Shown here: one piece after another, positions 2,614 to 4,604 of the stretch
Position numbering within the stretch: the stretch's first letter is position 1
How the letters are laid out: each line of letters begins with the position of its first letter
Assembly (NCBI RefSeq): GCF_024172185.1
Contig: NZ_JAMZEC010000001.1
Coordinates: forward strand, 8,221,001 to 8,285,000
Reading direction: 5' to 3'
DNA length: 64,000 nucleotides
Origin: Nonomuraea roseoviolacea subsp. carminata
Lineage (GTDB): Bacteria > Actinomycetota > Actinomycetes > Streptosporangiales > Streptosporangiaceae
Notes under the pieces: generated by a model
Told to the model about the DNA's origin: nothing
The model's input: the letters and a program-made list of their open reading frames with translations, nothing else
Database searches by the model: none
Program-made: the position numbers and the translations under genes

Positions 2614-3219
2614 TCACAGCCAGCCGCGTTCCTCCGCGATCAGGGCGGCCTCCGTGCGGGTGGCCGCGCCGAGCTTGCCGATGGCCGCCGACAGGTGGTT
2701 GCGCACCGTCCCGTTGGACAGGCTCAGCGCCCTGGCGATCTCTGCGACGGTCCCGCCGCGCCGCGCCACGCGCAGCACGTCGCGCTCGCGGGCGGTCAGG
2801 GGACTGGCCCCGCTGGTCAGCGATTCGGCCGCCAGCGCCGGGTCCACGACCCGCAGGCCCGCGTGCACGCGGCGGACCGTGTCGACCAGGTGCTCGGGCG
2901 AGGAGTCCTTCACCACGAAACCGGACGCGCCGGCCCGCATCGCCCGGGTGAAGTAGCCGGGCCGTCCGAACGTGGTGCAGATGACGACCCGGCACGACGG
3001 CAGGGCGAGGCGCAGGCGTTCGGTCAGGGCCAGGCCGTCCATGCCGGGCATCTGCACGTCGATCAGCGCGACGTCGGGCCGGGTGCGCAGCGCCGCCTCC
3101 AGCGCCTCCTCGCCCGTCGCGGCCTGGGCGGCGACCTCGATGTCGGGTTCGAGGGCGAGCATCGCGGCGAGCGCGCCCCGTACCAGCGCCTGGTCATCGG
3201 CGAGCAGGAGCCTGATCAT
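2614..3219 (-). CDS. LuxR/NarL-type response regulator (DesR-like)
   Basis: 201 residues. Receiver domain with acidic DD at 8-9, phospho-acceptor Asp54 in ALIDVQMPG, conserved Thr in VVICTTF and Lys in FVVKDSS; C-terminal LuxR helix-turn-helix with LTARERDVLRVARRGGTVAEIARALSLSNGTVRNHL read across the domain. It is the cognate partner of the histidine kinase immediately upstream on the same strand and probably controls the adjacent ABC exporter. Its ATG (3217-3219) overlaps the TGA of a tiny repeat-encoded ORF (ATGA), and its first codons (ATGATCAGGCTCCTG) are homologous to the repeat unit described at 3216-3375. Confidence 0.92.
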   Translation of the reverse strand: MIRLLLADDQALVRGALAAMLALEPDIEVAAQAATGEEALEAALRTRPDVALIDVQMPGMDGLALTERLRLALPSCRVVICTTFGRPGYFTRAMRAGASGFVVKDSSPEHLVDTVRRVHAGLRVVDPALAAESLTSGASPLTARERDVLRVARRGGTVAEIARALSLSNGTVRNHLSAAIGKLGAATRTEAALIAEERGWL

Positions 3220-3284
3220 GCGCGGCTCCCCAGGAGCGGGAGCCCGGTCATGCGCGGCCCGCCCGAACGCCGGAGCCCGGTCAT
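3216..3284 (-). CDS. Repeat-encoded mini-ORF 2 in HK/RR translational-coupling chain
   Basis: A 22-codon ORF that begins MTGLRRSGG and ends GSRA followed by TGA. Its ATG overlaps the TGA of mini-ORF 1 (ATGA at 3281-3284) and its TGA overlaps the ATG of the response regulator (ATGA at 3216-3219). It consists entirely of tandem-repeat sequence. It probably has no function as a peptide. It may serve to relay ribosomes from kinase to regulator by termination-reinitiation (inference). Confidence 0.35.
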   Translation of the reverse strand: MTGLRRSGGPRMTGLPLLGSRA

Positions 3285-3367
3285 GCGCGCCCCGTCCGGA
3301 GCCCGGTCATGCGCCGCTCGCCCGAACGCCGGAGCGCGGTCATGCGCGCCCCCCGGAGCCCGGTCAT
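3281..3367 (-). CDS. Repeat-encoded mini-ORF 1 in HK/RR translational-coupling chain
   Basis: A 28-codon ORF beginning MTGLRGARMTAL and ending TGRA followed by TGA. Its ATG overlaps the stop of the histidine kinase (ATGA at 3364-3367) and its stop overlaps the ATG of mini-ORF 2. The last residues (RA before the stop) copy the end of the kinase (ASRA). It is made of repeat units; a stable peptide product is unlikely. Confidence 0.35.
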   Translation of the reverse strand: MTGLRGARMTALRRSGERRMTGLRTGRA

Positions 3368-4518
3368 GCGCGGCTCGCCCGGAGTAGGAAGCCGCCCTGA
3401 GGCAGCGGGCCCGCCTCCAGCAGGCCGCCCACCGCGCGGAGCCGCTCCGCCAGCCCCGCCAGACCGCTGCCCGCCAGACCGCTGCCCGCCAGGCCGCTGC
3501 CCGGCGGTCGCCCGGCGGCGCCCGTGGCGGCGGCACCGGCGGCACCGGCGGCGGTGGCGTGGCCGTTGTCGCGGATCTCCAGGCTGGTCTCGGTCAGGGT
3601 GACCTCGCAGCGGGTGGCGCCGCTGTGCCGGATGACGTTCGTGACGCCCTCGCGCAGCACGTACGCGAACGGCTCCCTGAGGTCCTCGGCCACCTGATCC
3701 ACGCTCTCGGGCAGCACCGCGCCGATGCCCGCCGCCCGCAGCGCGGCCCGGACCCCGCTCAGCTCCGCCGTCAGGGACGGCCTGCGCGAGCCCGAGACCG
3801 TGGCGCGGATCTCCGCGTGCGCCTGCCGGGAGAGCCGTTCCACGTCGCGGACCTCGGCGAGCGCGAGCCCGGGATCGGCGCCGCGCTCCAGCAGGCGGCG
3901 GGCCAGCCCCGCCTTGGCGGTGATCGTGGTGAGGCTGTGGCCGAGCACGTCGTGCAGGTCGCGGGACAGGCGCTCGCGCTCGGCGGCGGTGGCCAGCGCC
4001 TCGATCTCCTTGTTGGCCTGGCCGAGCTGGACGAGCAGGCGGATCAGCAGCAGCACCGCGACCGGGGTCACGATCTGGGTCAGCACGGGCGGGAGCAGCT
4101 CCCACGACAGGGCGCCCGCCGCGCCGTACAGGGTGAGCAGCCGGATCACCGCCGCCGCCCCGGCCAGCATCAGCGCCCAGACGGTGGGCAGCAGCCAGGC
4201 GGCCGCGCTCAGGGTGAAGCCCAGCAGCGCAAGCGGCTCGCCGCCGTGGGCCGCCGGCACGGACACGCCGAGGGCGGACAGCCACACCAGCAGCGCGATC
4301 CTGGTCCTGGGCGTCCACGTCACGCCGTACGCCATGGCGGCGATCCAGCTCGCCGCGTACGCCAGCGCCAGCACGACGGCCAGCGGGCCGCGCCCCGGCC
4401 GGAACGCCTCCCACAAGGGCCAGACCAGCAGCCCGGCCAGCACCGCCAGGCCGCGCGCCCACCGCCACCGCTGGGACTCGTCGCGCTGCGGACGCCACGA
4501 GGGCCACGCACGTTCCAT
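3364..4518 (-). CDS. Sensor histidine kinase, DesK/NarX-type (HisKA_3)
   Basis: 384 residues. About five hydrophobic segments fill residues 20-165. HisKA_3 dimerisation follows, with phospho-acceptor His189 in RLSRDLHDVLGHS, then an HATPase with N-box EGVTNVIRHSG and G1 box RDNG. Between the G1 box and the G2 box lies an Ala/Gly-rich insertion (ATAAGAAGAAATGAAG) and the G2-like motif GSGLAG is present three times in tandem, encoded by exact 15-bp repeats at 3456-3500; most DesK-type kinases have one. It phosphorylates the response regulator downstream. Whether the altered ATP lid is active cannot be judged. The stop lies inside the junction repeat. Confidence 0.9.
   Translation of the reverse strand: MERAWPSWRPQRDESQRWRWARGLAVLAGLLVWPLWEAFRPGRGPLAVVLALAYAASWIAAMAYGVTWTPRTRIALLVWLSALGVSVPAAHGGEPLALLGFTLSAAAWLLPTVWALMLAGAAAVIRLLTLYGAAGALSWELLPPVLTQIVTPVAVLLLIRLLVQLGQANKEIEALATAAERERLSRDLHDVLGHSLTTITAKAGLARRLLERGADPGLALAEVRDVERLSRQAHAEIRATVSGSRRPSLTAELSGVRAALRAAGIGAVLPESVDQVAEDLREPFAYVLREGVTNVIRHSGATRCEVTLTETSLEIRDNGHATAAGAAGAAATGAAGRPPGSGLAGSGLAGSGLAGLAERLRAVGGLLEAGPLPQGGFLLRASRA
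3456..3500 (-). repeat. Triplicated 15-bp unit in kinase G2 box
   Basis: Plus-strand unit ccgccagaccgctgc occurs at 3456-3470, 3471-3485 and 3486-3500 (one substitution in the third). It encodes GSGLA in triplicate within the ATP-lid region of the kinase. Just upstream in the protein, 3501-3560 is a GGC/GCC-rich stretch encoding Ala-Gly repeats. Confidence 0.9.
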
Positions 4519-4529
4519 GCCCGCCAGCC

Positions 4530-4604
4530 TAAGGACGATCAGCCTGGGGACGGTCAGCGTGGGAACGACCAGCCTGGGAGCGACCAGCCTGGGGACGGTC
4601 AGCC
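4530..4604 (-). repeat. Five 15-bp tandem repeats between permease and kinase
   Basis: Perfect-period 15-bp units at 4530, 4545, 4560, 4575 and 4590, consensus on the plus strand tggggacggtcagcc with 1-4 changes per copy. The unit nearest the permease contains that gene's TGA stop (4599-4601). Reading past the stop gives a 5-residue repeat (PGWSL, PGWSF), so the array may have started as coding sequence. It fills nearly all of the 80 bp before the kinase ATG. Confidence 0.88.

Follow-up and report, generated by a model that had tools for sequence, protein, structure and literature searches.

Mini-cistrons between a kinase and its regulator

The closest described counterparts of the junction analyzed here are the mycobacterial MIRUs located between senX3 and regX3. 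MIRUs are dispersed and apparently mobile (PMC4213456, PMC12548453), and their units harbor a mini-ORF that is -4-coupled to the following gene and may pass ribosomes to it even if its own product is dispensable (PMC12548453). In two strains, the senX3-regX3 gap is described to contain either three 77-bp units or two 77-bp units and one 53-bp unit, and this region is able to drive regX3 expression (PMC4213456). Both unit lengths are 2 modulo 3. The preliminary description of the Nonomuraea locus had spoken of a form of phase-like variation that its author had not seen described. That the kind is undescribed finds no support in what these two sources report: taken together, they already describe tandem units with -4-coupled mini-ORFs lying between a kinase and its regulator.

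Anatomy of the Nonomuraea junction

The window, i.e. the whole stretch of 64,000 nucleotides analyzed, contains on its minus strand an operon-like run beginning with an ABC ATPase (6274-5315) and an ABC-2 permease (5318-4599). They are followed by a sensor histidine kinase of 384 amino acids (4518-3364; HisKA_3 and HATPase_c domains), with the tail ...LLRASRA before its TGA, and by a response regulator of 201 amino acids (3219-2614; Response_reg and a LuxR-type DNA-binding domain, GerE) that starts MIRLLLADDQ. The two genes are parted by 144 bp (3220-3363), filled by five imperfect copies of the junction (3220-3371) of 24, 33, 26, 33 and 32 nt, which add up to 148 nt from the GCGC at 3371 to 3224; copies 1 and 3 are alike, as are copies 2 and 4. 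Six ATGA motifs start at 3367, 3343, 3310, 3284, 3251 and 3219, with spacings of 24, 33, 26, 33 and 32. Reading of the codons reveals a stop and a start overlapping at each step: the kinase TGA overlaps, in the ATGA at 3367-3364, the ATG of mini-ORF 1 (28 codons, 3367-3281, MTGL...TGRA), whose TGA overlaps the ATG of mini-ORF 2 (22 codons, 3284-3216, MTGL...GSRA), whose TGA in turn overlaps the ATG of the regulator. Both mini-ORFs thus have -4 overlaps at both ends. The preliminary description, which had announced about 145 bp of five extra copies and this very chain through a 28-codon and a 22-codon ORF, proved accurate. Its remark that the mini-ORFs resemble the ends of the flanking genes holds for the two mini-ORFs and for the kinase, which ends in RA, while the regulator starts MIRL and not MTGL.

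As a repeat, the array is beyond chance: its TRF score is 247 (59-bp register), whereas none of 30 shuffles of the window (first-order Markov) scores above 125. Arrays this strong are not rare in this Nonomuraea genome, a 400-kb sample of which contains 12 merged tandem arrays scoring at least 150, four of them at least 240.

The array shares with the MIRUs the tandem units with -4-overlapping mini-ORFs between a kinase and a regulator, the overlap being read here from the codons. It differs from them in several respects. The MIRUs of the senX3-regX3 gap are described as identical 77/53-bp copies (PMC4213456), whereas the Nonomuraea units are 24-33 nt long and diverged; they are not dispersed but occur as a single copy in the genome; and the unit originates from the junction of the host itself. 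The senX3-regX3 MIRUs are reported to drive regX3 (PMC4213456); the Nonomuraea spacer is devoid of TA and hence of TAnnnT elements. The locus also belongs with ordinary translational coupling at the ATGA/GTGA -4 overlaps of consecutive genes, from which it departs by interposing two mini-ORFs made of overlap copies. As in short upstream ORFs that deliver ribosomes, the mini-ORFs may pass ribosomes on without a needed product; unlike them, they lie inside an operon and were born by duplication of the operon's own junction. The peptides they encode are probably by-products without function.

Origin of the array

In N. montanisoli, N. rhodomycinica (L041), a Microtetraspora and two Sphaerisporangium (L039-L043 together), the orthologous junction consists of one ATGA/GTGA with a -4 overlap and no spacer, and so does that of a degraded copy in N. 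jabiensis (L044). With this single overlap in all five orthologous operons as well as in the degraded sixth, the array is the derived state. To note, the N. jabiensis copy keeps the plain junction while its kinase matches in the 3' part only and its regulator sequence is internally shortened. Within the genus (54 genomes), this genome, G048, G022 and G010 are the only ones with matches at E 1e-88 or better. A more distant Actinokineospora pair (L045) has a single GTGA, directly preceded by an in-frame repeat of the kinase tail (15 bp x6.1).

The tandem duplication of the junction proposed in the preliminary description is borne out by these plain junctions and by the comparison of units. Repeat number does differ between relatives, with five extra copies here and none in six others; a fixed number with broken mini-ORFs, the contrary pattern named there, is not what they display. 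Unit 5 (32 nt) is 5 edits away from the ancestral unit inferred from the relatives' junction; for unit 4 the distance is 6 and for unit 2 it is 7, with none of 500 shuffles below 11. Units 1 and 3 are both at 10 edits, the best of 500 shuffles being 10 and 11, respectively. The distances between units range from 2 to 10 edits; that between units 1 and 3 (2 edits) and that between units 2 and 4 (3 edits) suggest that a dimer was duplicated later on. Two copies of TCCTGCTC lie 32 bp apart on either side of the junction in L039 and L040; of this 8-bp direct repeat, 7 bp are kept in L044 and 6 bp in L041; it is absent from the L042 and L043 junctions, and its kinase-side copy is altered in the window. 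Flanking direct repeats in an unexpanded relative, as expected of a minisatellite arising by slippage, are thus present in L039, L040, L044 and L041, and the founding mutation was probably slippage or unequal exchange between them. A search of the 9.75-Mb genome returned no second copy of the array; the next best match is 23 nt long (E 0.004), and a dispersed MIRU-like element was rejected on this ground.

The regulator dN/dS is 0.12-0.24 between the window and three relatives and 0.19-0.28 among those relatives, while that of the kinase is 0.36-0.83 in all pairs; across these four operons, neither gene gives a signal peculiar to the window. The regulator values show that the protein is kept, and are silent on the date of the array.

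Other repeats of the operon and genome

Further expansions surround the junction. The permease-kinase gap is 80 bp long here and contains 15-bp repeats, as compared to 19-21 bp in L039-L042 (the start of L043 being uncertain). Its repeat unit (4519-4604, minus strand) resembles the segment 5' of the kinase ATG in the relatives. The latter have TAGGCT (L039, L040, L041), TAAGGT (L042) or TAGGGT (L043) 6 nt before the kinase ATG, hexamers that we take to resemble leaderless promoters; in the window, TAGGCT is retained in the last repeat copy only. The kinase linker (3455-3553, minus strand) is longer than in L039 and L040 owing to in-frame 15-bp and 9-bp repeats between GHATA and GLAGL, and N. 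rhodomycinica has a different expansion of its own at the same place. The region being repeat-prone, a neutral origin of the array has to be taken seriously. Elsewhere in this genome, the spacer of another kinase-regulator pair (L006, kinase end rc 1219, CTGA kinase stop) measures 266 nt and has a repeat shift of 13 nt, as compared to a spacer of 87 nt in its relative L154, and L090 (11509-11865) harbors an 87-bp unit x4.1 with a 99% match.

The start of the regulator

The last copy of the array (3216-3250, minus strand) carries, directly before the regulator ATG, an SD-like GGGGAG in a predicted hairpin, GGCTCCC/GGGAGCC. The SD-type duplex of the regulator is stronger here (-6.4) than in five relatives (-2.2 to -2.6); this better SD might compensate for losses along the chain, which is a guess. 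Mini-ORF 2 runs through the SD. Because the predicted ensemble has this SD base-paired, translation coming from upstream could matter. A special RNA structure was nevertheless rejected: despite the predicted hairpin, the start region is no more stable than its dinucleotide shuffles (z -0.30). A TAnnnT promoter was likewise rejected, as the spacer strand contains no TA dinucleotide.

Surveys of kinase-regulator junctions

At this one locus, the relay is weak evidence of selection. With spacings random modulo 3, the prior for a relay reaching the last of six ATGA copies is 1/3, and in a simulated 5x32 array hit by 1-6 random indels the relay was kept in 0.47-0.83 of cases. Relays through a single mini-ORF are moreover frequent in this GC-rich DNA: in 464 kb of the genome, where 331 genes were crudely called, 10 further relays from gene to gene are present, start codons being taken as called. 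Under a more lenient rule, and leaving the window case out, the ordinary gene neighbors of these 464 kb display 10 relays versus 16 broken paths. A single locus being insufficient, kinase-regulator junctions were surveyed.

In the first survey, matches that had no locus yet were taken in listed order up to a part of the list (80 + 39) and joined to the loci already in the set, leaving out one whose contig ends at the kinase. Pairing relied on profile searches, with profiles built from 93 earlier pairs; the survey covers 159 kinase-type loci, 30 of them without a pair, and junctions identical over 70 bases were counted once. The resulting 141 distinct pairs comprise 106 direct -4 overlaps, 18 mini-ORF relays, 9 cases reading in frame into a longer regulator, 2 flagged as pathless and 6 without NTGA at the kinase end. 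One of the two flagged (L135) in fact relays into an in-frame start. Among NTGA-ended expanded junctions, the window included, the path is therefore kept in 28 of 29 and broken in L227 alone, as compared to 9.9 breaks expected under random frame (P 2.8e-5, or P 0.0034 with one member for each of 18 clusters at >=75% identity). The ratio of relays to broken paths, 18:1, differs from the 10:16 of ordinary neighbors (Fisher P 1.2e-4, kinship uncorrected).

A second sample was gathered with the L126 kinase against 394 genomes of the class and the L086 kinase against 54 genomes of the genus. Its independence is incomplete, because these queries belong to subfamilies of the first survey in which relays were already known. 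Its 60 loci yielded 42 new pairs: 21 direct, 9 relays, 5 in frame, 1 flagged (L245, in fact a relay to an in-frame start) and 6 without NTGA. None of its 15 NTGA-ended expanded junctions is broken, against 6.0 expected (P 2.8e-4; P 0.10 when reduced to about 5 hand-made groups).

Both surveys together amount to 183 distinct pairs, distributed into 127 direct overlaps, 12 without NTGA at the kinase end and 44 NTGA-ended with extra sequence; the latter are 27 relays, 16 in frame to the regulator and 1 broken. An unbroken translation path thus looks constrained across kinase-regulator pairs, and the assertion that the stop/start relay was kept through duplication finds support in these counts. 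In the pairs whose kinase lacks an NTGA end, TAnnnT is located 5-9 nt before the candidate regulator start in 4 of 12, versus 6 of 127 direct overlaps and 1 of 27 relays.

Multiplied junctions elsewhere and their period

A junction was deemed repeat-bearing when its best self-match exceeded all of 60 shuffles, a test applied only to junctions without direct overlap; some tests used stricter, hand-picked subsets (9 relays; 11 of 15). Eighteen junctions with an NTGA-ended kinase qualify, as well as that of L006, classed without one. Besides the window, the repeat-bearing relays are L076, L024, L126, L116, L218, L031, L082, L085, L210, L241 and L271. Nine of the 12 genomes concerned belong to the same genus, and three (G061, G057, G378) to other genera of the family. 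The multiplied junction is a real, derived and recurrent feature. The nearest neighbor is a plain -4 overlap in 8 of the 10 repeat-bearing relays of the first survey (73-89% identity); that of L218 is another relay, the next one being plain at 84.5%, and that of L116 lacks NTGA.

A mini-cistron with 4-nt overlaps has a length of 2 modulo 3. The best repeat shift has this value in all 12 repeat-bearing relays, that is in 12 of the 18 NTGA-ended repeat-bearing cases (P 0.004, kinship not removed). Four of the six repeat-bearing in-frame junctions have a shift of 0. The counter-examples to the rule are L273 and L243, both 1 modulo 3 and in the in-frame class, and L006, with a shift of 13 and a kinase ending CTGA. 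Repeat period and relay status are nearly the same measure; the repeat calls of 3 of the 18 (L210, L023 and L273) are barely above their shuffles. When 1-2-nt indels were simulated, the path was broken in 9% of cases for the window and in at most 32% for 8 of 10 repeat-bearing relays, as compared to at least 50% for 15 of 16 expanded junctions without such repeats.

From these features a broader view may be drawn, speculative and in our estimation unlikely to hold as a whole: the stop/start junctions of actinomycete kinase-regulator pairs would be recurrent nurseries of minisatellites obeying a 3m-4 period rule, the NTGA copies in several frames forming a frame-tolerant funnel in which a ribosome leaving in any frame would encounter an NTGA and be passed on, so that frameshifts are buffered, with regulator dose set by the number of reinitiation steps.

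How the array may have arisen and been kept

The account we consider probable is that the -4 overlap was multiplied in this lineage, that translation is handed on through the mini-cistrons and that path-breaking alleles are removed. An ordinary ATGA overlap of kinase and regulator would have been multiplied by slippage or unequal exchange between the short direct repeats 32 bp apart, followed by divergence of the units and duplication of a dimer. Each unit carries a kinase stop and a regulator start, so that a length of 3m-4 (2 modulo 3) makes it a full mini-cistron whose ends overlap. After termination at the kinase stop, ribosomes would reinitiate on mini-ORF 1, next on mini-ORF 2 and finally on the regulator; alternatively, passing ribosomes may open the GC-rich structure over the regulator start. 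In either case, alleles breaking the path would lose regulator synthesis and be eliminated, and such selection would account for the frame bias.

The main competitor is slippage without selection: in a repeat-prone operon, copying an ATGA yields a relay for free and nothing maintains it. The expansions in the permease-kinase gap and kinase linker, the four arrays of TRF score >=240 in the 400-kb sample, the high prior for a relay at this locus (1/3 to 0.83) and the frequency of single mini-ORF relays among ordinary neighbors (11, including the window's) all agree with it; yet in two surveys only 1 of the 44 NTGA-ended expanded junctions is broken, and we hold this reading to be rather unlikely. 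It is improbable that the spacer decouples the genes and lets the regulator start on its own GGGGAG. The SD-type pairing is indeed stronger than in the five relatives, but the SD is itself paired in the predicted ensemble, the spacer offers no TAnnnT promoter and the mini-ORF path is still open.

Two further proposals concern the array itself. The preliminary description had imagined it as a variable element whose copy number would tune or switch the ratio of kinase to regulator. Lineages do differ, with five extra copies here and none in six relatives, and the dimer duplication is visible; however, in the single strain analyzed the units stand 2-10 edits apart, unlike the near-identical units of hypermutable, phase-variable arrays. 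Phase variation at this junction is therefore unsupported, and tuning by copy number very improbable. Insertion of a MIRU-like mobile repeat, suggested by the similar architecture, is barely credible for an array that is single in 9.75 Mb and whose last unit differs by 5 edits from the one reconstructed from the junction of the relatives themselves. Multiplication of the host overlap with a maintained path is thus the reading retained, its coupling constraint being supported by the survey counts.

Significance

Among the matches listed in the literature searches (titles and abstract openings, few subscription journals), no description of arrays formed from a gene pair's own overlap was found; as far as these searches reach, the host-junction origin, its recurrence and the period rule are new. 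The junctions provide a natural series of kinase-regulator pairs with one to several coupling steps. As 8 of the 10 repeat-bearing relays of the first survey have a plain nearest neighbor, exchanging native junctions would allow the cost per reinitiation step to be determined. With repeat periods of 2 modulo 3 at overlaps, as opposed to multiples of 3 within genes, the frame rule provides a simple mark of translational coupling, suited to large-scale searches. Finally, MIRU-like mini-cistrons could, as this locus suggests, originate without any mobile element, from an overlap that is duplicated.
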